Below the pieces are notes generated by a model, which was not told the origin of the DNA, ran no database searches, and worked only from the letters and a program-made list of their open reading frames with translations. The position numbers were made by a program, and so were the translations under genes. Below are positions 48,005 to 63,535 of a DNA stretch of 64,000 bases, piece after piece. How positions within the stretch are numbered: position 1 is the first letter of the stretch; each line of letters opens with the position of its first letter. Source of the stretch: Pontibacter sp. G13 (GTDB lineage: Bacteria; Bacteroidota; Bacteroidia; J057); contig NZ_CP134696.1 of NCBI RefSeq assembly GCF_031851795.1, positions 2,279,001 to 2,343,000 on the forward strand, read 5' to 3'.

Positions 48005-48142
48005 CGTGCGGACGGCCTGCGGCGGCGCAAAGTGCCTGGAGTGGCCGACCTTGGGAGGAGTCTGCCATCCGGAGGGGGCGGCATCTCGCCTCCGGATGGG
48101 AGACCGAGCGTTAGCGAGCACGAAAGGGACTGACCAGCCGAC
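48005..48142. repeat. Dispersed structured repeat, copy 1
   Basis: About 138 bases that align with 63210-63348 nearly end to end. A central hairpin has arms 48060-48075 and 48089-48104 (16 positions, one G-G mismatch). The outer ends CGTGC (48005-48009) and GCACG (48118-48122) can also pair. Three stem pairs differ from copy 2 by compensatory changes, so the fold rather than the sequence is kept. Confidence 0.85.
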
Positions 48143-48153
48143 TGATCAGTCCC
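48126..48153 (-). terminator. Possible terminator of sulfatase gene
   Basis: GGGACTGACCA pairs with TGATCAGTCCC (one wobble) around GCCGAC. On the minus strand only TTTCG follows, so it is a weak terminator. It overlaps the end of repeat copy 1. Confidence 0.45.
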
Positions 48154-48198
48154 AAGCGGAAATTGGAGGTAGGTTCGGCTGGATGCGCCCAAACCCTC

Positions 48199-50091
48199 CT
48201 ACCAGAAATCTTTGTAAATCAAGGGTTCGCCAGTATGCTCATGCAGGATCATCTCACACAATTGCCCTACGGAGAAATAATCCTTGCGCTCGTTGGAGAA
48301 GGCCAGTAGCTCCCGTACGAAATCCAGTCTATGGGGAATTTTTGGGGAATATTGCAGCATCTGCATGACCTGTACAGCCAATCTATGCTGGCCGCCGAAA
48401 GCATGTTCGTGCAGCAGTTTCCAGCCTCGTTCCTCGTCCAGATAATGGAAGGCCATGAGCGCGGCTTCGATCTGTACGGGCGCAAACGGATCTTCCATCG
48501 CCTGATAAATCGCTGCTGAATCAGCCACAATCGCGGCCCCTTGTTGACGCAGACCAATCGCAGCCCAGTAGCGTACGATGGAATCCCGATGGGTGAGCTG
48601 GGCCAATTGCATCGGCAGGACGCCCTGACCTTGGCCTACCAGCTGGGCTGTCAGGTAAATGGCCGGAAAATCATAGTCGCCGGATTCACGGAACTCGTAT
48701 GCCGTAGCGCTATCGGAGAATTGATCCAGCACATATTCAGGGACAAAATGGATATCACGAGCCGCCAGAACCTCTGTGTTGAGTCGCTTGCGCATACGCT
48801 CCAGTTGGGCTTGATGCTGGGGATCGTTCGCCAGATTGTGAATCTCCCAAGGGTCGGCTTCGAGATCGTACAGATACTCGATTTCACGAGGTTCGAAATA
48901 GCGGCTCTGGACCTCGTTCATCAGCCCCTCGCGATGGGCCTTCCGAAGCAACTGAAGCGTACGTCCGTAATCGTGATATTTCTGCCAGCGATGCTCTGGC
49001 ACATCTGGCATGAACGTCCGCGTGTAAACGTATTTGCCCATCGTCACGCTACGTGCCAATTCGGGGCTTGTGCCTGTGCGATCCACGGAATGAACGAGCC
49101 ATCCTTCAGAATCCACTCGGGCTTCTCCCAAAAATGGCCGACCTTTCAAATGCTCGGGAATCTCCGCTCCGGCAAGGCTCAACAGGGTCGGTGCCAAATC
49201 CTCGAAGGAGACCATTTCCTCCGTCACAACGCCTGTACCCCACGGGGATAGATGCTTGTACTTTTCGGGAAACCACATGATGAACGGCACGCGATACCCC
49301 AGTCCATTGGCGTGGGTCTTGCCGCGGGCCATGCCCTCCCCGTGATCCGCGAAAGAGAAAATGATGGTTTCCTCCAGAAGATGTTCACGTTCCAATCGCT
49401 TGATCAGGGTATCCATCTGCTGGTCAAACAAGGACACGCCGTGATAGATCCGGGCATATTCCTTGCGCAATTCTGGCGATTCGAAGTAGAAGGGCGGCAT
49501 ATCGATCTCTGCCTCCGAGATGATTTCGGATTCGTCCAACTTCTCAAGCACCTGTTTCTCGAAGAACGAATAGGGATTGGTCATCGTCCGAGACTGGTGG
49601 GTGGAGTTGAAGTTGAACACCGAAAAGAACGGCTGTCCTTCGGCACGATTCCACCAGCCCGCTTTGCCAGAAGATTCATCCCAAGCCTCACGGACAATTC
49701 GTTTGGCATCGGTGGTGTTGTAGTCGGTCTTTTTGTTGTTGGTGGTGTAATAGCCCACCTCCCGCATGTAGGCTGGAAATCCCGTGATAAAATCCGGAAT
49801 CGGTTGTGGTCCACGGTGACAGCCTGTACCCATCGCGTAGGTGCGGACCCCCGTGATGAGCGCGCTTCTGCTCGGCGAGCACACGGCTCCTGTGGAGTAC
49901 GCCCTGTCAAATCGAACCCCCTCCTGCGCCAGTCGATCGAAATTGGGCGAATGCACCCACGGATTGCCGTAGCACCCTAGGAAGTGCGGCGAGGTATCCT
50001 CGAAGGTCAGCCAGAGGATATTCGGACGGTCCTGAGCAAATGTCAGTATCGGTATGAACAAGCCCAACAAGCAGGCGAGGGTCTTCATCAT
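48199..50091 (-). CDS. Secreted type I sulfatase
   Basis: 630 residues with signal peptide MMKTLACLLGLFIPILTFAQ. Cys71 in AVCSPSRSALITG is the formylglycine site (CxPSR). Metal ligands lie in ILWLTFEDTSP and FADHGEGMARGKTH. The fold resembles heparan N-sulfatase/sulfamidase-like members (YFEPREIEYLYDLEADPWEIHNLAND). The C-terminal ~130 residues (LAQLTHRDSIVRYWAAIGLRQQG) form HEAT-like helices, an extension seen in some bacterial sulfatases. It needs an anaerobic or FGE-type maturase that is not in the window. It would release sulfate from a sulfated glycan. It is 174 bases downstream of the hydrolase operon, same strand. Confidence 0.9.
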   Translation of the reverse strand: MMKTLACLLGLFIPILTFAQDRPNILWLTFEDTSPHFLGCYGNPWVHSPNFDRLAQEGVRFDRAYSTGAVCSPSRSALITGVRTYAMGTGCHRGPQPIPDFITGFPAYMREVGYYTTNNKKTDYNTTDAKRIVREAWDESSGKAGWWNRAEGQPFFSVFNFNSTHQSRTMTNPYSFFEKQVLEKLDESEIISEAEIDMPPFYFESPELRKEYARIYHGVSLFDQQMDTLIKRLEREHLLEETIIFSFADHGEGMARGKTHANGLGYRVPFIMWFPEKYKHLSPWGTGVVTEEMVSFEDLAPTLLSLAGAEIPEHLKGRPFLGEARVDSEGWLVHSVDRTGTSPELARSVTMGKYVYTRTFMPDVPEHRWQKYHDYGRTLQLLRKAHREGLMNEVQSRYFEPREIEYLYDLEADPWEIHNLANDPQHQAQLERMRKRLNTEVLAARDIHFVPEYVLDQFSDSATAYEFRESGDYDFPAIYLTAQLVGQGQGVLPMQLAQLTHRDSIVRYWAAIGLRQQGAAIVADSAAIYQAMEDPFAPVQIEAALMAFHYLDEERGWKLLHEHAFGGQHRLAVQVMQMLQYSPKIPHRLDFVRELLAFSNERKDYFSVGQLCEMILHEHTGEPLIYKDFW

Positions 50092-50265
50092 GAGAAATCC
50101 TTTTCCCCAATGATAAGTGTCTTGGGCTTAGAAAGCACTCATGGAGGAGATTCTGAGACAGTTGTCGCGCGGATTGAGAAATAAGAGGTAGTAGGGGAAA
50201 GTTGCCGGATGATATTCCGCCGCTGGATGGAGAACGTTTTCTCTCCACCTCGATCCATAGGCCAA

Positions 50266-51192
50266 CTATTCGCTGATCAAAAACTCCAACACCGCTTCCT
50301 CAAATGCAGCTGCCTGTTCATACATGGCAAAATGGCCCGCATTGGGGAGCATCACCAGAGTTCCATCTCCCAACGCGTCGACTCCTGCTTGCCCGACTTG
50401 CTCAGTCGTCAGGGTAGGGTGTAGATAGCGATTGGGGATCAATTGGTCTTCTGCGCCATAAACTGCCAGCACCGGTATCTTCAAAGCTCCCAGACGATCG
50501 AATACCGGACCTCCGAGCATGCCCTTGACCGAATTGGAAATCACCTGCGTGTACGCCTTGAAATCACTCGTCCGCTTGAGGGCAAACCGATCCTGAATCA
50601 TCGCCTCCACATCCTCAGGCATGTTGGAGAAGTTCAGACCGAAATTGATGCGGATCTGGGATTCAGGCGTAGCTTCCACCATCTCAGGGGTAGTAACTCC
50701 CATGATGGCAGCGCCTTCCTGCTCAGTAAACGTCTCAAATCCCGCGGGAGCGACCAACACCAATTGCTGAATGCGTTCTGGCTGCTTGAGCGCAACAGTC
50801 ACGGCAATCTGTCCGCCCATAGAGTGGCCAAATAGTACGGGAGACTCAATCTCCATACTATCCAGAAATTCCAAAACTCGGTCCGCGTACCAATCCATCG
50901 AGCCTGCATGGGCACGCTGGGTGGATTGACCATACCCCGGCAGATCGATGGCGATGCAACGGGCATGCTGAGAGAATGCTTCCAAATTTCTATTCCATGC
51001 GGGCGAGTAACTCCCCAATCCGTGGATGAATACCCAGGTCTGTTCCCCATCTCCCAGCTCGGAGTAGGCGATCTGCCAATCATCGGCGAGTGGTTGGCGC
51101 TGGATCGGAAACTGATAAGCTTCAGTCTGGGCGGAAAGGGGGAATGGAATCAGCATGGCAAACATCAGTAGTAGTTGGGTCCAATTTTTCAT
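50266..51192 (-). CDS. Exported alpha/beta hydrolase
   Basis: 308 residues with signal peptide MKNWTQLLLMFAMLIPFPLSAQ. Triad: Ser124 in FGHSMGG, Asp249 in YGAEDQLIP, His287 in NAGHFAMYE. The oxyanion motif is HGLGSYS. Typical esterase/lipase or acylhydrolase of the AB_hydrolase_1 group. It starts 12 bases after the acyl-CoA ligase stop, so it is the last gene of the symporter-ligase-hydrolase operon. It may release an acid from an ester in the periplasm, which the symporter and ligase then take up and activate (inference). Confidence 0.88.
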   Translation of the reverse strand: MKNWTQLLLMFAMLIPFPLSAQTEAYQFPIQRQPLADDWQIAYSELGDGEQTWVFIHGLGSYSPAWNRNLEAFSQHARCIAIDLPGYGQSTQRAHAGSMDWYADRVLEFLDSMEIESPVLFGHSMGGQIAVTVALKQPERIQQLVLVAPAGFETFTEQEGAAIMGVTTPEMVEATPESQIRINFGLNFSNMPEDVEAMIQDRFALKRTSDFKAYTQVISNSVKGMLGGPVFDRLGALKIPVLAVYGAEDQLIPNRYLHPTLTTEQVGQAGVDALGDGTLVMLPNAGHFAMYEQAAAFEEAVLEFLISE

Positions 51193-51204
51193 GCGAATAG
51201 GAGA

Positions 51205-52719
51205 TTAGGCGTGGGAAGTTTCAAGTACAGTTTGCAGGAGTTTTCTACGGTCGATCTTGCCCGTGGCATTTTTGGGCAAGGTGGCGACCACATGAAGGGT
51301 CTTGGGGATTTTGTATCCTGCCAAGAGCGTTTTGGCAAAAGCCTTGATATCGTCTAGGGAAAGCTGTTTCCCCCGTTCGAAGACCACCACAGCACAGCCA
51401 CATTCCCCCCATTTCTCGTGCGGTATCGGAACGACCACCACTTCGTTGATGGCCGGATGCATGCGCAGTGCCCGCTCCACTTCCGCGGGATAAACATTCT
51501 CTCCTCCGGAGATGAACATGTGTTTTTTGCGATCGACGACAAAGAAGTAGCCTTCTGTATCGCGGATGACCATGTCTCCGGTATGTAGCCACCCATCTTG
51601 AATGTGCGTGGCCGTAGCCGTAGGATTTTCCCAGTATCCGGGGGTGACGACTGCTCCCCGCACACACAATTCACCCGATTGCCCATCCGGAACAGGTTGG
51701 TGGTCATCGTCTAGGATTTTGACTTCGAGGTAGAAATTGGGCTGTCCGATGCTTCCCTTTTTGCGGATGGCGTCTTGCTGATGCAGGGAAAACAGATTGG
51801 GGCCCGCCTCGGTCATACCGAATCCTTGCCGCACGGGAACGCCCTTATCTGCCCACGTTTCGATCAGCGGAATCGGCATGGGTTCACCGCCCACCACCAT
51901 GTAGCGCAATGCTTCCATATCCGTCGATTCGAAGTTGGGACATTCAGCCATCATCTTCAGCATCGTCGGTACGCCCATCGCGATCGTGACTCGATATTGA
52001 TCCATTGCCTGCAAGACCTCCCCTGCATCAAATTGCTTCATCAGACACGTCCAAGCGCCATGATGCAGAAACGGCGTCAATAGGACATTCCATCCACCTG
52101 TGTGAAATGGCGGCATGAAATTCAGCGTCCGGTCATCCGAAGTGAGATTCAACCGAAGGGCCGTATTGAGGCTATTCCACAGCAACATCCGATGGGTGTA
52201 GATCACGCCTTTGGGAATGCCCGTAGTCCCCGAAGTGTAGAGAATGAAGATGGGATGATCTTGATCAAACTCAATCTCCGGCAACGGGGATTCCAGCGAA
52301 ACGCCCCCTACCCCATCCAACAATTCCTCCAAATGACTATGCGGAAGCGGATGTTTCTCCAATATCGACCAGCCGAGCTCGCGCAAGGCAGGATCGGTCA
52401 AGAGCAATTTAGGCTCACAATTCTGGAGAATTTCCCGAAGCTCAGGACACGCCAATCGATAATTCAATGGCACGAGGATGATCCCGGTCTTTTGCGCTGC
52501 GGAAAAAAGCACCACCATTTCGAGGGAGTTTTCCGCCAACATGGCCACACGATCGCCGGATTTCAAGCCTAGCTCATAGATCCACCAACGGGCGGTCTGC
52601 TCGGCCAGGCGATTGAGTTCACCGTAGGTCAATTCCCGTTCGCGGCCCCATTCCGTAATGGCCGTCTTGTGGGGCTGATAGATGGCTTGCTTGCCGATCC
52701 AGTCAAATTGGGTCAACAT
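51205..52719 (-). CDS. Acyl-CoA synthetase (AMP-forming)
   Basis: 504-residue ANL-family ligase that activates a carboxylic acid with ATP and CoA. Motifs: phosphate-binding FILYTSGTTGIPKGVIYTH (about 165-183), QGFGMTEAGP, WLHTGDM, DRKKHMFISGGENVYPAEVE and the C-terminal lysine in NATGKIDRRKLL. Closest in style to medium/long-chain fatty acyl or aromatic acid CoA ligases; the exact acid is not evident. It starts 9 bases after the symporter stop and is followed 12 bases later by the alpha/beta hydrolase. Confidence 0.93.
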   Translation of the reverse strand: MLTQFDWIGKQAIYQPHKTAITEWGRERELTYGELNRLAEQTARWWIYELGLKSGDRVAMLAENSLEMVVLFSAAQKTGIILVPLNYRLACPELREILQNCEPKLLLTDPALRELGWSILEKHPLPHSHLEELLDGVGGVSLESPLPEIEFDQDHPIFILYTSGTTGIPKGVIYTHRMLLWNSLNTALRLNLTSDDRTLNFMPPFHTGGWNVLLTPFLHHGAWTCLMKQFDAGEVLQAMDQYRVTIAMGVPTMLKMMAECPNFESTDMEALRYMVVGGEPMPIPLIETWADKGVPVRQGFGMTEAGPNLFSLHQQDAIRKKGSIGQPNFYLEVKILDDDHQPVPDGQSGELCVRGAVVTPGYWENPTATATHIQDGWLHTGDMVIRDTEGYFFVVDRKKHMFISGGENVYPAEVERALRMHPAINEVVVVPIPHEKWGECGCAVVVFERGKQLSLDDIKAFAKTLLAGYKIPKTLHVVATLPKNATGKIDRRKLLQTVLETSHA

Positions 52720-52728
52720 AACTCGGGA

Positions 52729-54267
52729 TTAGGGGGTATGGAGGGGTTCGGTTTCTGAAGAATGGAGTTGAGCAGAGTCCTCGGATTTTTCCGAAGCATT
52801 GCGAAAGACAAGATACAGGATTCCTGCGACCAACAAGGCTGCCAAAATCGCCCAAGTCGAGGCGATCGCGGGATTCTTGATGGCTTGGCCACGCATGTAC
52901 GGGGTGAATTCGCCGTAGTACACGCCAAAATGAACCACAATGGCGGTGACCGAAGCGGCAATGGGCGCAACCTTGGGGGTATGCTTCATGAAGGTTCCCA
53001 TCAGCACAGGGACAAAGGCCGCAGAGAAATAGGCGTACACGCCGTTCTGGGCAAAAATCGCTACGCTGAGATTGGGATGCAGCAATTGATCCAATGACAA
53101 CATGAAGGTGACGACCGCCAACACCGCGATCACCACACGGTTCAGCAAGATTTTTTGAGACTCAGATTGGAGCGAAGCCACAGGTTTCCAGTCGCCGAGT
53201 AGATCTGCTGTAATCGTCGTCGAGAGCGATTGGATCAATCCCTCCAACGTGGAGATCCCCGCCGAAATCAGCCCCAGTACCACAATCAATCCCATCCACA
53301 CCGGAAATTCCGCGAGCACATATTGTGGGATGATTCCGTCCATCGCCATGACCTCACCTGCGACCGTCAAGTCGGGAAACTCCAGCCGCGCATACAATCC
53401 CGTACACACCACTGCGAAAAACAGGATCTCCACCACAATGGCGATGAACAGGTATTGGTTGACTTGCTTACCGGATTTCAGGAGGAGCGATTTGGTGATG
53501 ATATGCGGTTGGCAGACAATCGCCACCCCGATCACCACCTGACAGAAGATAATCTCGAAATAGTCCCGAAACAGCGGACTCTCAGGATTCGTGGCTTTCC
53601 CCAAGGCAGGGTCGATGGCATTCAGTCGCTCCACAAAGCCCATCACGCCTTCCTTGAAATGCTCGTAGCCCGATCCTAACAAGAAGATCGCGACGACGAG
53701 CATCAAGAGTGCTTGAATGGTATTCGTGTAGACCATCGAGTTGGCACCGCCGAACATCATGTATCCGAAGATAAACACCACCACTCCGGCCAGTACGCCG
53801 ATTTCATTCACCCCCAGCGAGACCGCCAGCACCTTGGAGATCCCCACGCAGATCAGAACGATAAACGTGATCAGCAACAGCGAAAGCACCGAAAACCAGC
53901 GTTTGAATCCTTCGCTCCCAAATCGACTGCCCATCCATTGCGCCATCGTAAGCGCCGCCACCTGATCCCCATGTTTCCGAAATCCCTTCGTCAGCACGAT
54001 CAGCGACACCAATGCAGCCAACGGCAGGACCACCACGAATGATAGTACCGCCGGAAGCCCATACATGGCCGCAAACCCCGGATTGATGATAAAGGTCGCC
54101 GCACTCGTCATCGAGGCAGCCAGCGACAAGGCCACCGCCCACGGCGCAAAAGAGACACTCCCCTTGGCGTAGTCCGCAAGACTCTGCGTCCGGCGTGCAC
54201 CCCGAATCACCAGGTACACGACGATCGCCATATAAATCGAAATCAAGATCCAACTGGCAGTTTGCAT
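52729..54267 (-). CDS. Sodium:solute symporter (SSS family)
   Basis: 512 residues with about 13 membrane helices. Family features include an N-terminal helix, SLADYAKGSVSFAPWAVALSLAASMTSAATFI and the GLISAGISTLEGLIQSLSTT segment carrying the serines of the conserved Na+ site. It resembles acetate/pantothenate/proline-type carriers (ActP/PanF/PutP). Given the adjoining acyl-CoA ligase it probably imports a carboxylate with Na+. It is the first gene of the operon; a small hairpin with U-tract lies 58 bases before its start. Confidence 0.92.
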   Translation of the reverse strand: MQTASWILISIYMAIVVYLVIRGARRTQSLADYAKGSVSFAPWAVALSLAASMTSAATFIINPGFAAMYGLPAVLSFVVVLPLAALVSLIVLTKGFRKHGDQVAALTMAQWMGSRFGSEGFKRWFSVLSLLLITFIVLICVGISKVLAVSLGVNEIGVLAGVVVFIFGYMMFGGANSMVYTNTIQALLMLVVAIFLLGSGYEHFKEGVMGFVERLNAIDPALGKATNPESPLFRDYFEIIFCQVVIGVAIVCQPHIITKSLLLKSGKQVNQYLFIAIVVEILFFAVVCTGLYARLEFPDLTVAGEVMAMDGIIPQYVLAEFPVWMGLIVVLGLISAGISTLEGLIQSLSTTITADLLGDWKPVASLQSESQKILLNRVVIAVLAVVTFMLSLDQLLHPNLSVAIFAQNGVYAYFSAAFVPVLMGTFMKHTPKVAPIAASVTAIVVHFGVYYGEFTPYMRGQAIKNPAIASTWAILAALLVAGILYLVFRNASEKSEDSAQLHSSETEPLHTP

Positions 54268-54324
54268 AGCTTTCGTAGTAGTCAGTAATCGAAGTTGTGA
54301 GTAGAAACCTCCCTCGGCTTCGTG

Positions 54325-54345
54325 AAAAAGGGCCCAAAGGCCCTA
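54325..54345 (-). terminator. Short terminator or attenuator before symporter operon
   Basis: On the minus strand AGGGCC-TTTG-GGCCCT is followed by TTTTC. It lies 58 bases upstream of the symporter start, so it either ends read-through from the right or attenuates the operon. Confidence 0.55.
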
Positions 54346-54430
54346 CAAACAATCATATCCTGGAGCCGTCCCAATCTGTGGGATTGGCATCGTGGGACCC
54401 GGTTTCCTATCGGGCATGATGACGAGTTGG

Positions 54431-54545
54431 AGCATTTGGGCGTGCCTCGGCGTGCTGGGCATATCGGTCGCTCCTTGGCAAGGTCGCCGCCGAGTCAGGC
54501 TGTCCACGGGTTTGCTGCGCTCCGTCTTCGGGGATCGAGTTTCCT
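54431..54545. repeat. GGGCGT...GGCTGTCC-type intergenic repeat
   Basis: The stretch has GGGCGTGCC, GGGCATATCGGTCGCTCC, CAGGCTGTCC and TTTGCTGCGCTCCG in this order. From memory this resembles a family of dispersed intergenic elements common in Bacteroidota genomes (GGGCGT..., ...GGGCTGTCC, CGCTCC). Only one copy is seen in the window. Confidence 0.5.
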
Positions 54546-54737
54546 CAGGGTGTTCTCCTAACCGTCGATCACACTTGGCATTGGGTCCCGACGATTCAGG
54601 GGCTTTTCAGAACGCCTTTTGGGTCATGATTCCTTGCGCGGCCTCATTTCCCATTCTCCCTCAGACTGCTCGTAACCTCGCACCGTTTCCATCCTTCACG
54701 CCACACCAGCCATCCGCACCTCAACCTCTTTCTCCCC

Positions 54738-54766
54738 AAAAAGGGCAGGCCCCATACCTGCCCTTT
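54738..54766 (-). terminator. Rho-independent terminator of KAS III-like gene
   Basis: AAAGGGCAGG / CCTGCCCTTT forms a perfect 10-bp stem with a 7-base loop. On the minus strand TTTTTGGGG follows. Confidence 0.88.
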
Positions 54767-54852
54767 CAAAAATCTGCAACATAGTATGGTTGGTCCCACC
54801 TGTAGAACTTCTCCGCATGAGATCTCCGTACAGCGTGGAACAGCTCCAGAAA

Positions 54853-55842
54853 TCAATATCTAAACAGCGCTCCCGCGAAGCTCAATCCGCCTCCTGAACC
54901 CAGGAAGAACAACAGATCCCCGCGCTTGATTTTTCCGTGTCCCAGCGCATCGTGCAGGGCCATCGGGATACAGGCTGAACCGGTATATCCATTGTGATGC
55001 ATCACGGTATGCGCCTTGGCACGTGGCAATTCCAAGCGATCCATCGTCTCCCAGATGCTGTTGATATTGATCTGTGTGATCAGAAACTGAGAGATGTCGG
55101 CAGGCTCGACTCCCGCTTTGGCACAGAGATCTCGGATCATTTGGGACCAGACCTCAGGATTCAATTCCTTCGGGAATCGCTTCACGAATTTCAACTTGTG
55201 ATCCTGCTGAGACACAACCGCTTCAGTGATGGGTTCGCGAGTTCCGCCCGCATAGATGCCCATCCATTCGTTGTACTGTCCTTGGCTTCTGAGCATGCTC
55301 CCCAAGAATCCTCGGTCTTGGGTTTCTTCGGACTTCAGGATCGCACAGGCAGCACCATCTGCAAAGAGGGTAACCGTCTTCTTGTCCAGCTGATTGAGAT
55401 ATTTACTCATGGCATAGGCACCAATTACCAGAATGTGCTGGTAGTGCTCATCCGATTGGATGTACTTGGCTGCCACATCCATTGCGGTCACAAATCCCGC
55501 ACAGGCAGTATTCAGATCGAAGGTTCCGGCATTGACCGCACCGAGTCGATCTTGCACGACCGAAGCCGTAGATGGAGAGATGAATTCCGGCGTATCGGTG
55601 GCGATGATGATCAGATCCAGATCTTCCGGAGTCAACCTCGCCTGCTCCAATGCTTGTCTCGCCGCCCGTTCGCAGAGGTCGGCGGTAGACTCGTCATCGG
55701 CACACCAGTTCCGGTTATAGATTTGGACATTTTCCTCCAGCCAGTCGCTGACATTCTCCTGCAAGAGATCATTGAAATACTGGTTGGACAAAGTTCGCGT
55801 GGGCGTATAGGACCCAGTCGCGTGTATGACTGCTTTCCGCAT
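54853..55842 (-). CDS. KAS III-like thiolase-fold acyltransferase with altered active site
   Basis: 329 residues, the length and fold of FabH. The nucleophile Cys114 is present in LNTACAGF. By eye alignment to E. coli FabH, the catalytic His of PHQAN is replaced by Thr256 (LITQIN) and the catalytic Asn of HGNTSA by Tyr286 (NGYTGSA). His and Asn support malonyl decarboxylation, so the protein probably does not carry out standard fatty acid initiation. Acyl transfer or a thioesterase-like reaction from the Cys-bound acyl group is more likely (inference). A FabG-type reductase gene lies 55 bases upstream on the same strand, suggesting one operon. Confidence 0.82.
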   Translation of the reverse strand: MRKAVIHATGSYTPTRTLSNQYFNDLLQENVSDWLEENVQIYNRNWCADDESTADLCERAARQALEQARLTPEDLDLIIIATDTPEFISPSTASVVQDRLGAVNAGTFDLNTACAGFVTAMDVAAKYIQSDEHYQHILVIGAYAMSKYLNQLDKKTVTLFADGAACAILKSEETQDRGFLGSMLRSQGQYNEWMGIYAGGTREPITEAVVSQQDHKLKFVKRFPKELNPEVWSQMIRDLCAKAGVEPADISQFLITQININSIWETMDRLELPRAKAHTVMHHNGYTGSACIPMALHDALGHGKIKRGDLLFFLGSGGGLSFAGALFRY

Positions 55843-55897
55843 GATTCGGGGTTGATGAAAAAATAAAGCTAGGAACGATGGCGAAAACGCTCCGCGG

Positions 55898-56641
55898 CTA
55901 GACTGTCAGGCCGCCATCGACACTCAGGCAATGCCCTGAAATGAACGCCGCATCGTCAGAAGCAAGGAATGCATACGCCGCTGCGATTTCCGAGGGTTCA
56001 CCCAAGCGAGGCACGGGTGTTTTGGAAGTGATGGAGTTGAGCACTTTTTCAGGGACTGTCAAGACCATTTCCGTCGCGATGAAGCCCGGCGCGATCGCAT
56101 TCACGGTGATGCCCTTTTTGCCGAGCTCACGCGCCCAGACTTTGGTCATGCCGATCAGGCCGGATTTGGCCGCTACATAGTTGGTCTGCCCATAATTGCC
56201 GTACAACGCCACCACAGAAGCAGCATTGATGATGCGGCCATATTGATTCTCCACCATGAACTTGGACACCGCCTTGGTGCAGTAGAACACGCCCGAGAGA
56301 TTCACGTCGATCACTTGCTTCCACTGATCCTCGGTCATTTTGGCGAGCGAAGCATCGCGAGTGATTCCTGCATTGTTCACGAGGATATCGATTTTCCCAA
56401 ATTGGTCGAATACTTCTTGGGCGGCGGCTTCTACATTGGCCAGCGTACGGGTGTCCACCTTCATGAAGTGTGGATCGTACTCACCGCCCGAAAGTGCGGA
56501 TACGGCTACTGCTCCCGCAGCTTCGTCGATATCCCAGATGACAACCTGTGCGCCTTCTTGCACGAAACGCTCAGAGGTCGCGCGGCCGATGCCTTTGGCT
56601 CCGCCTGTGATGATGGCAACTTTGCCAGATAACCTACTCAT
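55898..56641 (-). CDS. 3-oxoacyl-[ACP]/acetoacetyl-CoA reductase-type SDR
   Basis: 247-residue classical short-chain dehydrogenase. NAD(P) motif TGGAKGIGR (12-20), NNAG (89-92), active-site Asn114, Ser142, Tyr155 and Lys159 (NYVAAKS). Sequence style matches FabG/PhaB reductases (NNAGITRDASLAKMTEDQW). The likely reaction is reduction of a 3-oxoacyl thioester. It starts a unit with the KAS III-like gene 55 bases downstream. A thioester-linked product made or processed by both is plausible. No phaC or acyl carrier protein gene is nearby. Confidence 0.9.
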   Translation of the reverse strand: MSRLSGKVAIITGGAKGIGRATSERFVQEGAQVVIWDIDEAAGAVAVSALSGGEYDPHFMKVDTRTLANVEAAAQEVFDQFGKIDILVNNAGITRDASLAKMTEDQWKQVIDVNLSGVFYCTKAVSKFMVENQYGRIINAASVVALYGNYGQTNYVAAKSGLIGMTKVWARELGKKGITVNAIAPGFIATEMVLTVPEKVLNSITSKTPVPRLGEPSEIAAAYAFLASDDAAFISGHCLSVDGGLTV

Positions 56642-56968
56642 GATGAGATTGATACTGTAGTCTTATTCCGAAAAAACAGTTGCGAGATCGTGAAAGCTGT
56701 CCAAAGCTTTACGGGTCCAGCTCCACTCATTCCGGTGGGGGTAAGGGCGCCGGAATAGAAAGGTTGGTGGGTGGCTATCCGACTCCGACCCGGCATTCGG
56801 ATCGGAGGTCGAATAGCTACTATTTACTACTACACAATGATTCAAACTGTAGATAGCTGCTTGCTTTAGAAGCGAAAACCATCCATTTCAGGTGCCCGAC
56901 ATGTGTGCATGAAGGACTTGAACCGGAAAGTTCGCAGCAGCCATACAAGCATGAAACAGCTTCCTTGC
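56642..56968. other. Intergenic region with two hairpins
   Basis: Between the receptor stop and the reductase start. ATTCCGG (56729-56735) and CCGGAAT (56750-56756) form one stem. GCTATCCGACTCCGA (56774-56788) pairs with TCGGAGGTCGAATAGC (56802-56817), with one bulge, in a second. Neither has a U-tract. They may form a leader or a factor-dependent termination region. Confidence 0.5.
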
Positions 56969-59437
56969 CTAGTTCCCAGGATTTGGGAGGTTCACCTTCA
57001 ACTCCGCGGAGATCAATCGGCCGATGAATGGAGATGCCACAAATTCGCGCACATCCGCATCGAAGAGATTGGTCACCTGTGCCGATACGGTGAACATGTC
57101 GTTGATGCGGTAGCCAGCAGCTACATCCACATTCACGAATCCGCCCAACTGCCCGTAGTTCCAAGTTCTGCCATATCGTGCATTCTCTACGATTCCGAGG
57201 TCTTCATTCGCAGCGGCAGCGACATTGATTCCGGAGAAGAAATCATATCCATCCACCCAGCGGACCAAGGTATTCGCAAAGAATTTCTGATGGCTATAGG
57301 TCAAGCCCACGGAGAGTTTGTGAGCTGGTGTATTGATCGGAAGATCGGTCGGCAATACCACACCATCCCCATTTCCATCATTGGCCATGTCCGTTTCATC
57401 GAGATCGTACCCGAAGTATGAGTAGTTCAGATTCGCCTTGAATTGGTCGTTGAAGTAGTAGTTCAAGCCCAAGTCAAATCCATAGGTATTCACCTGTCCG
57501 AAGTTCAAGTAGGTCAACAAGAATCCAGAACCAGCTTCTGGCGTACCGGGGATCACTTCGCTCATCGGAGTCTCCCCACGCATAGTCACAGTGCGGCCAT
57601 TGGTAGCGATATTCGTCAGCGGGCTCAAAAAGTCCTTGGACATGTTGAAGTATGCATTCGCATCGATGAAGAGCTTTTTCTGAATGTCGCCTTTGTAGCC
57701 AATCTCGATGGTGTTGATTTTTTCCACCTGAAGCGGATCGATTACGGTTCCGTCAGACAAAGTGAAGCCTTCGCCATTCCCTAGTACCAAGCCTCCAAAC
57801 AAGTCTCCGCTCAAGTTCAAGATCGTCGGAGCGGCAATTCCTTTTCCGTAAGTCAAGCGGAATACGCCGTGGTCAGTGATGCCCAACAAAGCCGCTTTCG
57901 GGATCAAGTTGAAGCCATACAATTCGTGGTAGTCCGCACGCATCGCGCCGACAAACTTGATGTGCTCGCCAAAGAGGCGCTCCACCTGTGCATATACACC
58001 GATCTGATCGAGGACAATCGGATTGTCTGGATCATCCAATAGATAGGTGCCCAAGCTGTTGGCAATATCGCGCTGTACTTGCGTACCGACGATGTATTGG
58101 AACCCAGCTACCTCATTGTTGTACTGAATCTCACCATTGATTCGGCGAGACTTGTCCTTGAAGATCGCCCCACGCGCCAAGTCGATCCCGGTGGTATCAC
58201 TCAATGGGAAGTATTGGTTGGTGTAGGACATTTGACGGGCATAATCCTCGCTGAATCCATTGGCGATGTAGGAGGTGTAGTTTTGGGTGCGTTGATTGAT
58301 CGCGTAGGTGCTGTCCGTTCCACTCCAAGTGTGGTACAATTGCGCGAAGAGTCGCGGAGATTTGTACTGTGCATGGAAATAGGCCACACGCCAGTCCTTG
58401 ATCTGGTTACGACCAGCATTGGTGGCGGCGAGGTTGTTGTTGTTGGAAGCGCCGTAGGTCAGGATGATATCGTTGTTTTTCTTCGGCGTGTAGTAAAGGG
58501 AAGCTTCGCCCTTGACGGTGTTGAAGGTACGGTCCAGATCCAGTTCATCGAAAGCGAAATCTCCGATGTAGACGGTATCCATGTACTCGAAATCTTCACC
58601 TTGTGTGTATTCTGCGTTGATTTTGAACGCCAATTTGTCATTGATGACCGTGGCATTTCTCACACGACCAGTCAAAACGCTCTGGTTTCCGCCACCCAAA
58701 GCGATGGTCGTCCCTTCGGAGTCACGAGGGTCTTTGGAGATGGTATTGACCAAGCCGTTGTGGGCATTGGGACCGTACAGCGCAGCGGATGGTCCGAGGA
58801 TCACCTCTACGCGCTCGATGTCTTCCTTGATGGTCGGAGAGAATGAACCGAATGGCAATCCTGTCGCGATCAAGCTGGACAGACGGCCATCGTTCATTTG
58901 GAGGTTTTTGGGATTAAATGCGCTATTGAATCCGCGCACATTGATACCGGTTCCCAAAACGCCTGTACGGATGAAATCCACCCCTTTTTGACGTGCGAGC
59001 AATTCTCCGGTATTGAATCCGGCGTGCTCCTCGTAGTCTTCGGCGTTGATGATGGAAATGGTGGCGGGTGCCTGCGTTACTTTCTCAGGACGGCGGGAAG
59101 CGGAAATGACCACCTCGTCTCCGATGAAAGCAGATTCCTTGAGGGAAAAATTGCGCTCAACCGTGGCGTTGGCTGCGAATGTGATGTCCTCGGCGATGCC
59201 TTCGAATCCAATGTAGGAAACGACCACCTCGTAGGTTCCGGCAGGAATTTCGTTCAGGGTGAAGGAACCATCGTCTTCTGCGAATGTTCCCATCGTCGTG
59301 CCTTTCAGCATGATCTGGGCACCAGAAAGTGGTTCTTGAGATGTAGCGTGCGAGATCGTACCAGTCAGACGGGCATTTTGCGCCCAGATAAAGCCTGCGG
59401 TACACAAAAAGAGTAGCGTAAATAAGCCTCTTTTCAT
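56969..59437 (-). CDS. TonB-dependent outer membrane receptor
   Basis: 822 residues from the ATG at 59437, where the signal peptide starts (MKRGLFTLLFLCTAGFIWAQ). The open frame to 59539 adds a non-export-like leader and would cover a palindrome. A carboxypeptidase-regulatory-like domain (about 22-105, LTGTISHATSQEPLSGAQIML, VVSYIGFEG) precedes a plug with EVVISASRRPEKVTQAPATISII, LLARQKGVDFIRTGVLGTGINVRGFNS and RVEVILGPSAALYGPNAHNGLVNTISK. The barrel ends in ELKVNLPNPGN. Closest to CirA/FepA-like receptors, not SusC. Ligand unknown. Single-gene unit. Confidence 0.92.
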   Translation of the reverse strand: MKRGLFTLLFLCTAGFIWAQNARLTGTISHATSQEPLSGAQIMLKGTTMGTFAEDDGSFTLNEIPAGTYEVVVSYIGFEGIAEDITFAANATVERNFSLKESAFIGDEVVISASRRPEKVTQAPATISIINAEDYEEHAGFNTGELLARQKGVDFIRTGVLGTGINVRGFNSAFNPKNLQMNDGRLSSLIATGLPFGSFSPTIKEDIERVEVILGPSAALYGPNAHNGLVNTISKDPRDSEGTTIALGGGNQSVLTGRVRNATVINDKLAFKINAEYTQGEDFEYMDTVYIGDFAFDELDLDRTFNTVKGEASLYYTPKKNNDIILTYGASNNNNLAATNAGRNQIKDWRVAYFHAQYKSPRLFAQLYHTWSGTDSTYAINQRTQNYTSYIANGFSEDYARQMSYTNQYFPLSDTTGIDLARGAIFKDKSRRINGEIQYNNEVAGFQYIVGTQVQRDIANSLGTYLLDDPDNPIVLDQIGVYAQVERLFGEHIKFVGAMRADYHELYGFNLIPKAALLGITDHGVFRLTYGKGIAAPTILNLSGDLFGGLVLGNGEGFTLSDGTVIDPLQVEKINTIEIGYKGDIQKKLFIDANAYFNMSKDFLSPLTNIATNGRTVTMRGETPMSEVIPGTPEAGSGFLLTYLNFGQVNTYGFDLGLNYYFNDQFKANLNYSYFGYDLDETDMANDGNGDGVVLPTDLPINTPAHKLSVGLTYSHQKFFANTLVRWVDGYDFFSGINVAAAANEDLGIVENARYGRTWNYGQLGGFVNVDVAAGYRINDMFTVSAQVTNLFDADVREFVASPFIGRLISAELKVNLPNPGN

Positions 59438-59474
59438 GAGTCCAAACATTTGTAGTAAACGAGTAGTCAAAAAC

Positions 59475-59491
59475 AACCTCTTCAAGAGGTT
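59475..59491. promoter_or_regulatory. Palindrome upstream of TonB-dependent receptor
   Basis: AACCTCTT-C-AAGAGGTT is a perfect 17-base palindrome, 37 bases before the receptor ATG. It may be an operator or a leader hairpin. A short GCCTA/TAGGC pair follows at 59501-59518. Confidence 0.4.
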
Positions 59492-59680
59492 TCCTAAACG
59501 GCCTAAATTCTTGTAGGCAGATGAAAAGCGAGCATTCATCTTCCTACTTACGATGCTTCGAAGTAATTCTAACTTAACAAGGACTCTGGGCTTACTGGGT
59601 TCGACTTTCCAAAAATAGGGGGTCGACTATTTAACCAAATCCACAAGACTATTGAGCAAAAGCAGGCTATTTTTCTCCAA

Positions 59681-59701
59681 AACCCCAAAAATCATGGGGT
59701 T
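59681..59701 (-). terminator. Terminator-like hairpin overlapping stop codon
   Basis: AACCCC-AAAAATCAT-GGGGTT overlaps the stop codon of the 498-residue protein gene. On the minus strand TTGG follows. Weak stem of 6 bp. Confidence 0.4.
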
Positions 59702-61188
59702 GACTGAGACTCCAAAGTATGGGTCAATTCGACGATGGGGTCCATGCCCCACTTATTTTTGGGGAGGGTGAGCAACTCGTCCCATTGGATGGCTCCGACG
59801 ATCTCCGGCGCAAAAGGCTTGAGTTCGTCCACCAAGGTTTTGGCAAGTTGGATATTTCGCGGGCTACGCTGCAGGTCTTTGAGCGAGTCTTGAATCTGGC
59901 CGATCAGTCTCCGCTGACTGAGTTTTCCTTCGTGATATTGTGCCCAACCGACATACCAGCGCAGCGTCGGGAGATAATTGGGTCGATGGCGGTAGGTATG
60001 CTCGCGATTCATGAGTTTGTGCTTGTTGACCAGCTGGAGCATGGAGGCACTTTTTTCCTGGACCAATAGCGCCTTGAGGTAGGAAGTGAAAAATAAGTGC
60101 CAGCGATGAGCCATGACTTCCTGCGAATATCCCCGGAGGAAGGATTCTGCATATTGCTCCGCCTCGGCAGGCAGGCCTGATTCGATGAGACACCGAATGT
60201 AAAAGGACGCGAACCCCACCCGTTCATGGGCATTTCGAGAATTGCGCAGCTCCGGAAACGCCGAACGCATGAGCTCCATCGCGGCGGGCTGATTGTGCCG
60301 CCGGAGTAGGATCGCGCTGAGTTTGTTGACATACAGCAGATAATCGGAGCCTTTGTATTTGATGGCAAGATAGCCGAATTGCTCCGCGCGGGCCAGATCC
60401 CCGAGCTGGGCATGCAGGGTGAGGCGATTGGCGTAGTAATTCGCCAAAATCCTCCGGGAATAGAACATGCCCTGTCGCATCCATCCATCGATCCGGTCAT
60501 AGAGCGCCAGTTGCTTGTGCAGCTGCCGATAATTCATGTAGATGAAGGTCAGCCGCACGATGGCCATGTAGCGATTCAGCCCGTCCAGCGACTCGTCTTG
60601 GATCATGGTGTTGAGCCATTCCTCCCACTGTCGGGACTCCGTCGCCTGGCTGGAATACTGCGCCGTGATGTCCTGCGACACCCGATGCAATTGCGCAAAG
60701 ACCTCCCTTGATCGCTCAAACGCTGCCTGATGGTCATCCAGAAATTGGTGGACAGTCGCATGGGCCTTGTATCGCATCCGGATCAGCAGAAACTGGCGAA
60801 ACTGCACCGCCAGCTCATAGAACTTCACGAAATAGTAATCCGAGGTTCGCGCGGCTTTGATGGCCCGGAGGAGTTCCTTTTCCTCGGTGGGTGTGATGGC
60901 ATCGGTCATGAGGCTGCGCTCCATCTGACTGATCCAGTCAAACTGGCGGTCCACATCGATCTGGGAGAGTTTGGTCTGCGCCCACTTCATCCAACGCGAG
61001 TATTTGCGCTTGTCGATGGATGCATCGAGTTCGCGGTGGGGGTCCGGCCGAGCGACCAGTTCCTCCACTTGTTGGAGAATACGCAGATTGTCCGCATCCG
61101 CAAATTGTTGGATGTGGGCAAGATATGCGGGTTCATGCGGCATGAGTTCCCCGCAATACGCCCGAAATTTGGCAAGTTTGGCCTTCAT
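59692..61188 (-). CDS. Uncharacterised helical-repeat (TPR-like) protein
   Basis: 498 residues, no signal peptide or membrane helix. Predicted to be almost all helix with TPR-like pairs (AQLGDLARAEQFGYLAIKYKG; SGLPAEAEQYAESFLRGYSQEV; YVNKLSAILLRRHNQPAAMELM). I recognise no named family; large cytosolic proteins of this kind are common in Bacteroidota and have no known role. Basic and aromatic residues are frequent in the N-terminal half. It is a single-gene unit at the edge of the repeat region and is divergent from nothing recognisable. Confidence 0.75.
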   Translation of the reverse strand: MKAKLAKFRAYCGELMPHEPAYLAHIQQFADADNLRILQQVEELVARPDPHRELDASIDKRKYSRWMKWAQTKLSQIDVDRQFDWISQMERSLMTDAITPTEEKELLRAIKAARTSDYYFVKFYELAVQFRQFLLIRMRYKAHATVHQFLDDHQAAFERSREVFAQLHRVSQDITAQYSSQATESRQWEEWLNTMIQDESLDGLNRYMAIVRLTFIYMNYRQLHKQLALYDRIDGWMRQGMFYSRRILANYYANRLTLHAQLGDLARAEQFGYLAIKYKGSDYLLYVNKLSAILLRRHNQPAAMELMRSAFPELRNSRNAHERVGFASFYIRCLIESGLPAEAEQYAESFLRGYSQEVMAHRWHLFFTSYLKALLVQEKSASMLQLVNKHKLMNREHTYRHRPNYLPTLRWYVGWAQYHEGKLSQRRLIGQIQDSLKDLQRSPRNIQLAKTLVDELKPFAPEIVGAIQWDELLTLPKNKWGMDPIVELTHTLESQSTP

Positions 61189-61295
61189 CGCAGCATCAAT
61201 CCGTAGGAGTCCTTTTTCCGGCAGCGCCGGATATTCAAGATAATGGAATGTGGCGGGAGTGGCAAATGGGGGAGCGATGGGTGTGATCGGCGTGG

Positions 61296-61349
61296 CGATA
61301 TCCCGGGACGATATCCCGGGGGCGATATCCCGGGGGCGATATCCGGGAA
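61296..61349. repeat. Short tandem repeat CGATATCCCGGGR
   Basis: Four direct units of 13-14 bases (61296, 61309, 61323, 61337), with a fifth CGATATC start at 61350 running into the first hairpin core. Each contains the palindrome CCCGGG (the fourth unit has lost one C). Confidence 0.8.
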
Positions 61350-61356
61350 CGATATC

Positions 61357-61376
61357 CCGGGCAATGAATTGCCCGG
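61357..61376. repeat. Hairpin core copy 1
   Basis: CCGGGCAATGAATTGCCCGG, a perfect 9-bp stem with loop GA, followed by a conserved tail with GTCGCGCCTACAGCGCTTG. First of six copies; spacing to copy 2 is 410 bases. Confidence 0.85.
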
Positions 61377-61385
61377 CTGTGATAT

Positions 61386-61533
61386 GTCGCGCCTACAGCG
61401 CTTGCATGGATGATGATGAGGCCAGAACGTCTCCGATGCCCAAGCCTCGCACGTCATCTTCGACGGCAATGGGCCCTGGCTTGTGTGTAGGCGCCGATCG
61501 GGGATCTCCTGAGCGCGAGCAGGAATGCCAAGC
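61386..61533. repeat. Repeat module B, copy 1
   Basis: 148 bases that appear identical by eye to 62439-62586. Starts in the shared GTCGCGCCTACAGC tail and ends at AATGCCAAGC. Confidence 0.8.
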
Positions 61534-61766
61534 GAAAAAAATGCCTCATGCTGCAAAATTCCGACGCGGTGGCGCCTGTGGGTGGGGGAATTTATGCGGG
61601 ATCCCACGCTTTGTGCATGCTAGGGCTCGTCTTTTTTCAGGAGAGGAATGAGGGCCATGTTACTCCCTTGGCATCCATCCTGCCCTGTGGGCGCCCTACC
61701 GCGGAATTGAGCAGGAGCCGGATTACCCACGGGCCAGTGCACTTGCCGAAATCCGCCTCAGGATTT

Positions 61767-61786
61767 CCGGGCAATGAATTGCCCGG
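61767..61786. repeat. Hairpin core copy 2
   Basis: Same 20-base hairpin as copy 1. It is preceded by the conserved CTTGCCGAAATCCGCCTCAG segment and followed by module A, which itself has an inverted repeat (CCCGCAAAATTCC at 61847 with GGAATTTATGCGGG at 61884). Confidence 0.85.
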
Positions 61787-62069
61787 TTGTGGGATGTCGC
61801 GCCTACAGTGCTTGCATGGATGCCAAGCGCTAAAATATTGCCTCATCCCGCAAAATTCCGACGCGGTGGCGCCTGTGGGTGGGGGAATTTATGCGGGATC
61901 CCACGCCTCGTGCATGCTAGGGCTTGTCTTTTGTCGGGAGAGGAATGAGGGCCATGTTTCTCCCTCTCCCTTGGCATCCATCCTGCCCTGCGGGCGCCCA
62001 ATCCCGGAATTTAGCAGGAGCCGGATTACCCACGGGCCAGTGCACTTGCCGAAATCCGCCTCAGGATTT

Positions 62070-62089
62070 CCGGGCAATGAATTGCCCGG
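62070..62089. repeat. Hairpin core copy 3
   Basis: Same 20-base hairpin, 303 bases after copy 2, followed by another module A and by the insert CAGAGTTTGTTTGGGCCGA near 62363. Confidence 0.85.
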
Positions 62090-62409
62090 TTGTGGGATGT
62101 CGCGCCTACAGTGCTTGCATGGATGCCAAGCGCTAAAATATTGCCTCATCCCGCAAAATTCCGACGCGGTGGCGCCTGTGGGTGGGGGAATTTATGCGGG
62201 ATCTCACGCCTCGTGCATGCTGGGGCTCGTCTTTTATCGGGAGAGGAATGAGGGCCATATTACTCCCTTGGCATCCGTCCTGCCCTGTGGGCGCCCTACC
62301 GCGGAATTGAGCAGGAGGCGGATTACCCACGGGCCAGTGCACTTGCCGAAATCCGCCTCAGCAGAGTTTGTTTGGGCCGATGCACTTGCCGAAATCCGCC
62401 TCAGGATTT

Positions 62410-62429
62410 CCGGGCAATGAATTGCCCGG
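62410..62429. repeat. Hairpin core copy 4
   Basis: Same 20-base hairpin, followed by module B copy 2 and then by a unique segment (about 62587-62712) not seen elsewhere in the window. Confidence 0.85.
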
Positions 62430-62438
62430 TTGTGGGAT

Positions 62439-62586
62439 GTCGCGCCTACAGCGCTTGCATGGATGATGATGAGGCCAGAACGTCTCCGATGCCCAAGCCT
62501 CGCACGTCATCTTCGACGGCAATGGGCCCTGGCTTGTGTGTAGGCGCCGATCGGGGATCTCCTGAGCGCGAGCAGGAATGCCAAGC
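62439..62586. repeat. Repeat module B, copy 2
   Basis: Second copy of the 148-base module found at 61386-61533. No differences were seen by eye, which points to recent duplication. Confidence 0.8.
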
Positions 62587-62768
62587 CTACTCCACATGCC
62601 CCCGCGGCGATCTCCTTGGATGCCATGCAAGCTCAGGGAGATTCCGGATAGGGCTCCAGCGCGAGGGCCGTGGCAGATGCCCTTCCGGAATGACGTGATG
62701 GGGGGATTCTGAGCAGGAGGCGGATTACCCACGGGCCAGTACACTTGCCGAAATCCGCCTCAGGATTT

Positions 62769-62788
62769 CCGGGCAATGAATTGCCCGG
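62769..62788. repeat. Hairpin core copy 5
   Basis: Same 20-base hairpin, followed by module A. Confidence 0.85.
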
Positions 62789-63101
62789 TTGTGGGATGTC
62801 GCGCCTACAGCGCTTGGATGGATGCCAAGCGAAAAAATATTGCCTCATCCCGCAAAATTCCGACGCGGTGGCGCCTGTGGGTGGGGGAATTTATGCGGGA
62901 TCTCACGCTTTGTGCATGCTAGGGCTTGTCTTTTTTCAGGAGCGGAATGAGGGCCATGTTTCTCCCTTGGCATCCATCCTGCCCTGCGGGCGCCCAATCC
63001 TTAGCAGGAGCCGGATTACCCACGGGCCAGTGCACTTGTCGAAATCCGCCTCAGCAGAGTTTGTTTGGGCCGATGCACTTGCCGAAATCCGCCTCAGATT
63101 T

Positions 63102-63121
63102 CCGGGCAATGAATTGCCCGG
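63102..63121. repeat. Hairpin core copy 6
   Basis: Last copy of the 20-base hairpin. Its tail runs directly into the long hairpin at 63131-63176. Confidence 0.85.
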
Positions 63122-63130
63122 TTGTGGAAT

Positions 63131-63176
63131 GTCGCGCCTACAGCGCTTGGATGTTTGAAAGCGCTGTAGGCGCGAC
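63131..63176. repeat. Perfect 18-bp hairpin ending the array
   Basis: GTCGCGCCTACAGCGCTT (63131-63148) meets its exact reverse complement at 63159-63176 across a 10-base loop. The left arm is the tail present after each hairpin core, so this is one tail facing an inverted copy of itself. Confidence 0.85.
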
Positions 63177-63209
63177 ACCTCGCAGGCATGGGTTTCCAAC
63201 CCTTGACCT

Positions 63210-63348
63210 CGTGCGGATGGCTTGCGGCGGCGCGAAGTGCCTGGAGTGGCCGACCTTCGGGAGGAGTCTCGCATCTGGGGGCGGCGATCTATCGCCCCCA
63301 GATGCGAGACCGAGCGCCAGCGAGCACGGAAGGGACTGACCTGCCGAC
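63210..63348. repeat. Dispersed structured repeat, copy 2
   Basis: About 139 bases matching 48005-48142. The central stem here is perfect over 18 bp (63266-63283 with 63293-63310, loop 9 bases). Flanking blocks GCGGCGGCGCGAAGTGCC and GAGCACGGAAGGGACTGAC are almost identical to copy 1, while the stem differs in a paired fashion. Confidence 0.85.
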
Positions 63349-63535
63349 TCCTGATGCCAAGAAAGGAAATCCATGCCCAGATCGGCAGGGCGCGCCCTAC
63401 TCTCCCAAAACAATCATCCCGGAAACCTACACTTGCAAAGCCGTGCAGATCTCCGGGAAAGCGTTCATCATGATCACGCATGATGAATCCTTAGATACCC
63501 GTATATAATCGGTATGAGTGCGTTACCTAATAGGC

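Follow-up and report, generated by a model that had tools for sequence, protein, structure and literature searches.

A dispersed family of branched, covarying elements in Pontibacter sp. G13 and other Bacteroidota

What keeps a stem paired while its sequence changes from copy to copy? The question is raised by a 64,000-nt stretch of Pontibacter sp. G13 (the window: contig NZ_CP134696.1, positions 2,279,001 to 2,343,000, or C1:2279001-2343000 of the 7.67 Mb (7.675 Mb), 3-contig genome G000), in which an initial annotation had described two copies of an element 15 kb apart. It took selection on a folded RNA or single-stranded DNA as the simplest reading of paired changes in their central stems, and considered an undescribed small RNA, a mobile hairpin element, or a repetitive extragenic palindromic (REP)-like sequence. 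Judged from the sequences, the element belongs to a dispersed family with a real, constrained fold; the family matches nothing in Rfam 15 as searched and shows very strong covariation. We tentatively favor the explanation that its members are dispersed non-autonomous mobile elements of Bacteroidota, whose working form would be a folded strand with a conserved branched structure.

Fold and covariation

Both copies were found where the annotation had placed them, and a by-eye comparison of the two stems reproduced its paired changes (C-G in copy 1 to G-C in copy 2, C-G to T-A, and A-T to G-C, with a G-G mismatch in copy 1 appearing as a C-G pair in copy 2). The starts stand, but the ends given as 48142 and 63348 fall short of the true ends at 48193 and 63400 and leave out both the P5 hairpin and P1's 3′ strand. 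The sequences described as nearly identical flanks are the conserved core of the element itself. The two copies 15 kb apart are joined by a third in the window and by an estimated several hundred in the genome. The fold is branched, with a closing helix P1, a helix P2 that contains a homopurine mismatch, P3, a variable P4, a 3′ hairpin P5, and the tail CAAA(U). In the feature list below, bit scores refer to two covariance models: R1, built on the 29 copies of alignment A1, and the more general R2, eight of whose sequences come from G000.

48005..48193, + strand: copy 1, subfamily A, 189 nt; 177.6 bits with R1, 68.6 bits with R2
48024..48029, + strand: copy 1, P1 5′ strand GGCGCA, partner 48184-48189
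48031..48037, + strand: copy 1, P2 5′ strand (AGT, mismatched G, CCT), partner 48125-48131; the mismatch is A3 column 32/287
48060..48104, + strand: copy 1, P4, variable long stem-loop, arms 48060-48075 / 48089-48104
48134..48182, + strand: copy 1, P5 hairpin, 48134-48141 with 48175-48182
48184..48193, + strand: copy 1, P1 3′ strand TGCGCC and tail CAAA
54435..54720, − strand: copy 3, long variant of 286 nt with an enlarged P4 domain; 63.4 bits (E 3e-10) with R1, 45.3 bits with R2
63210..63400, + strand: copy 2, subfamily A, 191 nt; 200.7 bits with R1, 72 bits with R2
63229..63234, + strand: copy 2, P1 5′ strand GGCGCG, partner 63391-63396
63266..63310, + strand: copy 2, P4 stem-loop, arms 63266-63283 / 63293-63310
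63340..63389, + strand: copy 2, P5 hairpin, 63340-63347 with 63382-63389
63391..63400, + strand: copy 2, P1 3′ strand CGCGCC and tail

The P4 stem arms measure 16 nt in copy 1 (94% complementary) and 18 nt in copy 2 (100%).

A genome search with copy 2, in which 40 of 208 candidates were scored, returned 50 rows, comprising 40 places (copy 2 included) and 10 antisense palindrome matches. Thirty oriented and aligned copies place the start of the conserved unit near GTGCGG and its end at CGCCCAAA(T). Pairing was scored in three alignments: A1, with 29 copies of 186–193 nt (locus L018, which has an extra hairpin, was left out); A3, with 132 rows fitted to R1 from 97 of 101 tile or window sources, including one row cut at a tile end and lacking 5 of the 136 copies counted below; and A4, a plain alignment of 27 sequences from five genomes.

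In A1, from which the scored structure was itself derived, standard pairs account for 98.5% of 1244 pair cells, double changes occur in 25 of 43 pairs, and double-change cells number 117, compared with 22 in shuffles. None of 500 shuffles reached any of five measures, and sliding the partners by 1–3 columns lowered pairing to 33–47%. In A3, whose rows were fitted to the model, standard pairs fill 96.6% of the 4121 pair cells and double changes are present in 40 of 43 pairs (760 cells vs. 192 in shuffles; 0 of 500 shuffles), while the ten column pairs with the highest mutual information among its well-filled columns, under the same fitting, are all pairs of the model. The same four core helices recur in A4, where 95.4% of 613 cells are paired and 17 of 23 pairs show double changes (0 of 500 shuffles). 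Covarying helices of this kind are expected of a structured RNA. A pseudoknot between the 5′ tail and the P5 loop does not appear among the 45 column pairs listed by mutual information.

The closing helix illustrates the pattern. P1 is fully paired (6/6) in 128 of 131 copies and exists in eleven fully Watson–Crick versions (GGCGTG/CACGCC 47, GGCGTA/TACGCC 35, GGTGTG/CACACC 13, GGGGTG/CACCCC 10, GGCGAT/ATCGCC 7, and six rarer ones). The inner position of P2 (A3 column 32/287) holds a covarying homopurine mismatch, G·G in 66 and A·A in 48 of 132 rows, with other combinations in 18.

Pairing is also maintained between sister copies. The median nearest-neighbor identity among copies is 78%. In 23 nearest-neighbor pairs at 80–90% identity, both sides had changed in 36 base pairs and a single side in 10 (seven of the ten via G·U), where independent sides predict 4.2 double and 73.6 single changes; in these same pairs, 191 of 506 P5-loop sites differ. 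The 73 pairs at 70–80% identity gave 183 double and 53 single changes (28.9 and 361 expected), and the four pairs at ≥90% gave 1 and 2, too few for judgement. Since the paired changes between sisters are compensated, copies seem not to decay freely once inserted. The initial annotation had reasoned that a folded form would be contradicted if paired changes were not in excess among further copies; in sets of 29 and 132 copies, no shuffle among 500 matched the observed excess, and the covariation in A1, A3, and A4 together with the sister-copy changes gives strong support to selection on a folded structure.

Family size, variable domain, and placement

All 150 candidates scored with R1 in the genome match (2005 first-look candidates; such counts are not copy numbers). 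An unbiased count was taken from contiguous tiles totaling 2.06 Mb, including the window (27% of the genome). After exclusion of 13 of 48 rows from the first window and tile search (12 that match just the P4 palindrome, in antisense, and one weak 102-nt partial) and 3 of 104 from the second tile search (two antisense P4-palindrome matches and one cut at a tile end), 136 copies remain. This corresponds to 66 per Mb, or about 507 when extrapolated to 7.675 Mb; the density is about one copy per 15 kb, and the element makes up 1.3% of the tiles. R2 gave 133 matches in 1.944 Mb of tiles, nearly all of which coincide by inspection with R1 places. The small contig C3 carries copies as well (e.g., 7065-7215, 81594-81743, 91846-91996). 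Copies range from 158 to 286 nt and fall into length classes A (184–194 nt, 41 copies), B (≤172 nt, 30), C (205–220 nt, 35), and D (221–235 nt, 20), with 10 others.

P4, as the sequences indicate, is an exchangeable domain. In two copies 1.9 kb apart (L171:9527-9735 and L171:11414-11579), the 5′ flank, 5′ tail, P1, and P5 with its loop are almost identical and the P4 domains are unrelated, a swap best read as recombination between copies. C- and D-type P4 inserts are unrelated between copies, their identity being about that of shuffled inserts even at a core identity of 0.8–0.87. The subfamily C insert nevertheless keeps a near-constant length (83.3 nt, standard deviation 2.8, stem included, n=32).

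Placement was assessed against calls from a simple, purpose-made gene finder. Convergent gene pairs enclose 66 of 136 copies (18.6% of spacer length) and divergent pairs only 6 (22.3% of spacer length), with the remaining 64 between co-directional genes (38 antisense, 26 sense; p 0.17). A called gene is overlapped by ≥50 nt in 7 of 136 copies. Among pairs closer than 150 nt, 15 of 16 are arranged 5′-to-5′ and one 3′-to-3′ (p 1e-8); nine of the 15 have gaps of 7–17 nt, and most join different length classes. Spacers between a gene and an element often contain a T-tailed hairpin (seen by eye, not counted; the terminator scan was too strict). Strand use follows no replication bias, a possibility rejected at 72 minus and 64 plus copies without a regional trend.

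Element-like sequences were also seen in other Bacteroidota, and similar sequences are common in flavobacteria. With R1, 3 of 40 genomes searched as relatives contain a match, G000 counted (≤65 candidates scored per genome). R2 matched 3 of 13 genomes of the host's own family, with at most 150 candidates scored per genome: G000 (estimated 500 copies), G009 (43 among 150 candidates scored), and G007 (1). In a phylum sample, it matched 11 of 296 genomes, G000 counted (≤11 candidates scored per genome). Because a limited number of candidates was scored per genome, the absences among relatives are not firm. Core matches in other hosts span 104–169 nt, and four genomes of one genus hold 3, 2, 1, and 1 matches. 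Scanning named genomes for a pattern yielded 21 stretches. Judged by eye, 15 of them, from Bacteroidota metagenome-assembled genomes (MAGs), extend into the element and one, from a Proteobacteria MAG, resembles it; the other five do not extend into it (two Acidobacteriota, one Gemmatimonadetes, two rumen Bacteroidetes). Three blastn queries against phage and plasmid records found no match.

Mobile element, host function, or DNA site

Support for the suggestion that the element is mobile comes from closely similar copies whose surroundings are unrelated, from the patchy distribution, and from the P4 swap at L171. Among the 136 tile copies, nine pairs with a core identity of 0.88–0.97 all lie 10–65 kb apart, compared with 10% of all pairs lying <100 kb apart; six of these nine derive from four copies, and only copies inside tiles were compared. 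The best pair (97% core identity, 33 kb apart) has unrelated surroundings, and its identity spans from six bases before CGTGCGG through CCCAAAT. What emerges from the sequences is conserved pairing with constraint among close copies, copies that occupy new sites and end sharply on the 3′ side, no enriched protein family next to them, and placement mostly off promoters. On the mobile explanation, the working form would be a folded single strand of RNA or DNA; a trans-acting protein would recognize the fold (P1 with the P2 mismatch, and P5) and then copy or move the element; copies would survive where no promoter is broken; and the fold would be kept by something at each site or by very effective turnover through gene conversion. 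More speculatively, the family could represent a new element class: a parasite or symbiont of Bacteroidota, folded and resembling short interspersed nuclear elements (SINE-like) or borne by single-stranded DNA, present in one to hundreds of copies, with a protein-recognized conserved core and an exchangeable cassette domain (a fixed-length, copy-specific insert in one subfamily), selected at each site after insertion and mobilized by a not yet recognized enzyme.

Several results weigh against the mobile folded strand, beginning with the identity of the strand. Folding z-scores are −2.4 and −3.6 for the stated strands of copies 1 and 2 and −3.5 and −4.7 for their complements; because the complements score further from shuffled sequences, folding energy does not pick the strand. 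Over 42 A3 pairs (the constant G·T at column 82/228 excluded), G·T cells outnumber A·C cells by 57 to 20 (binomial p 3e-5, with cells that are not independent), but the excess is concentrated in subfamily A (31:1) and is not significant elsewhere (B 9:6, C/D 15:11, together 26 to 19; C/D in P1–P3 and P5 alone, 11 to 9); a single P4 pair of A3 holds six of the A·C cells. The excess of G·U over A·C supports the stated strand for subfamily A, the class of both reported copies. As a control, 25 tRNAs from the same tiles gave 38 G·T and no A·C, with G·T in 38 of 256 non-majority cells. The corresponding G·U share is 0.148 in tRNAs, 0.052 (31/592) in P1–P3 and P5, and 0.127 in P4, so that the depletion is only threefold in the core helices and P4 comes close to tRNAs. 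Because the core tolerates little G·U, single-stranded DNA is a possible working form alongside RNA.

No target-site duplication of ≥5 bp was found, direct matches between a copy's own flanks being no longer than those between the flanks of different copies (2–4 bp lies below resolution), and inverted repeats are not in excess between the two flanks of a copy; a first impression of an inverted GGATGA...TCATCC around the element came to nothing. The ends GTGCGG... and ...CGCCCAAA are not the inverse of each other, and a miniature inverted-repeat transposable element of the DDE type was rejected for want of both a target-site duplication (≥5 bp) and terminal inverted repeats. A mover was not found among the genome's Y1, RVT_1, and RRXRR candidates or the neighboring protein families. 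The only RVT_1 match (L220 219-2334) has RT_UG17, a DRT-type defense reverse transcriptase, as its best PADLOC model and is accompanied by an RTasSLATT membrane partner; a group II intron origin was rejected on this assignment, and the nearest element found to the gene is 4.2 kb off (L090:2548). The RRXRR search of the genome gave no match, and its controls likewise gave none. No protein family is significantly enriched near copies (216 of 1497 called genes lie near them; best uncorrected p 0.011).

One shared site adds to these difficulties. Four congeneric species share one element position by apparently the same aldehyde dehydrogenase gene (Pfam was run on L201 only), with the copy ≤10 nt from the stop codon in three and ~270 nt in the fourth, and with a varying neighbor on the other side. 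G051 speaks for movement: its copy downstream of a deoxyhypusine synthase gene has no equivalent at the same place in three congeners, but this empty-site comparison is imperfect in that the congeners' spacers differ otherwise too. Finally, inert mobile copies would not be expected to keep their helices intact at a divergence of 10–20%, and to judge from these comparisons the intact helices argue for function at each site.

Function at each site is the substance of the strongest rival, possible but less probable than movement of a folded strand. Each copy would act where it lies as a host-functional structured element, for example as RNA in 3′ regions (an RNA barrier, a protein platform, or an insulator between convergent units), and the fold would be kept copy by copy. 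The nearly invariant pairing of P1, the compensated sister-copy changes, the location of copies at gene ends, and the position kept in the four congeners all suit it. Other results count against it. The Bacteroidota promoter motif TAnnTTTG occurs upstream on the sense strand in only 3 of the 102 windows of 120 nt that precede single copies; in front of genes it was seen in 116 of 818 windows, and past the ends of convergent genes in 1 of 97. This also bears on the proposed undescribed small RNA: "undescribed" holds for Rfam 15 as searched, whereas an expressed small RNA gains no support from the upstream sequence, in which no promoter signal appeared. Moreover, 44 of 136 copies have no upstream neighbor pointing into the sense strand, and their P1 and P5 pairing is equally intact (0.4% non-standard cells in the (-,-) class, 0.8–2.6% in the others; 131 copies). 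The 10 of 13 family genomes without a match (≤150 candidates scored each) also count against a host function. On the strand opposite the element, TAnnTTTG was seen in 7 of 102 last-60-nt upstream windows, compared with 1/102 and 0/102 farther off.

A site acting at the DNA level, as duplex or cruciform, is unlikely. Such a chromosome element would resemble REP sequences or bacterial interspersed mosaic elements (BIMEs) and serve gyrase, a nucleoid protein, or insulation; hundreds of intergenic copies, the inverted 5′-to-5′ pairs, the non-significant strand asymmetry in subfamilies B and C/D, and the low number of G·U pairs relative to tRNAs are consistent with it. Because the G·U asymmetry is carried by subfamily A, we rate the mobile folded strand lower and the DNA-level site higher than we otherwise would. 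The 31:1 ratio in subfamily A is nonetheless unexpected if both strands act alike, the covarying G·G/A·A position fits a folded strand, and patchy occurrence among relatives also stands against a chromosome site. These three explanations are not fully exclusive.

That the element is REP-like, as the initial annotation considered, and owes its movement to a Y1 (RAYT/IS200) transposase is very improbable. The family is dispersed and intergenic, forms inverted pairs, and shares its genome with two Y1 transposase genes, but both genes are bordered by palindromes other than the element, R1 finds no element in the 3.2–3.3 kb around either, and the element differs from REP in size and branched fold. 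Membership in the RAYT/REP group (RAYT, REP-associated tyrosine transposase) was rejected because neither gene is bordered by the element. The second Y1 gene (an open reading frame of 181 aa; L113 1130-1260, 1850-2060) is bordered by another palindrome family (ggacttccggaccgtg...).

Equally remote is a programmable RNA whose unconserved inserts serve as guides in the manner of bridge or omega RNAs, as the unrelated yet near-constant-length subfamily C inserts might suggest: by longest exact match, P5 loops and inserts are no more complementary to their own flanks than to those of other copies, the 29 non-self insert matches in 27% of the genome are only 15–19 nt long apart from one wrongly parsed insert containing core sequence (the source of all hits ≥20 nt), and inserts are no more structured than shuffled ones. 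Loops as guides to their own flanks, inserts copied from or aimed at the rest of the tiled genome, and inserts with a structure of their own were rejected on these results; the flank and genome matches come from 52-row sets that include a few D-type rows with a loosely parsed P4 (e.g., L154:10953).

The family is a natural set of compensatory mutants, with which one could test whether a strand that has no visible promoter folds and is used in vivo. It invites a search for a mobilizer in a large, ecologically important phylum, and bears on the old question of whether dispersed structured repeats are parasites or part of host regulation.

Comparison with known systems

Within the window, no Rfam 15 family reaches its gathering threshold on the element. 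With permissive thresholds, applied to three G000 loci and seven from other genomes, the element drew only sub-threshold mir-617 scores (27.1 and 24.4 bits for a cut-off of 80), which lie over the P4 palindrome. No title or abstract beginning among the literature matches listed points to the element, which is weak evidence.

Among structured RNAs, the HEARO/IscB omega-RNA is a dispersed structured RNA of ~200 nt, often found without its open reading frame, and resembles the element in size and dispersal; no HEARO match appeared in the Rfam searches, permissive thresholds included. The loops of IS110 bridge RNA (seekRNA) are complementary to the flanking target, whereas those of the element show no such preference. 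Integron attC sites fold on one strand and have a terminal domain free in sequence; the element occurs as single dispersed copies and pairs and has a branched core.

Acido-Lenti-1 (RF01687) is likewise a dispersed hairpin and occurs in the same region, with four gathering-level matches in the window (61357-61402, 62410-62455, 62769-62814, 63102-63147), but it is a 46-nt single hairpin of other sequence. The stronger Y1 gene (L112 1100-2300) is flanked on both sides by hairpins that by eye resemble Acido-Lenti-1; on this evidence the Rfam "sRNA" may itself be a palindrome of the REP-like kind. PMC2864571 lists the GUCCY-hairpin motif in Bacteroidetes and Proteobacteria and gives no Rfam accession for it; its name suggests one hairpin, but identity with the element is possible.

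REP, REPIN, and BIME sequences resemble the element in organization. They too occur in many intergenic copies, keep a palindrome through complementary changes, and form inverted pairs (PMC2817692, PMC6006769). In RAYT systems the repeat itself borders a Y1 gene, and in G000 the repeats bordering the Y1 genes are of other families. REP itself (20–40 nt according to PMC3733652) is a palindrome of 20–40 nt with a GT[AG]G foot, whereas the element is 158–286 nt long and branched, with a conserved core.

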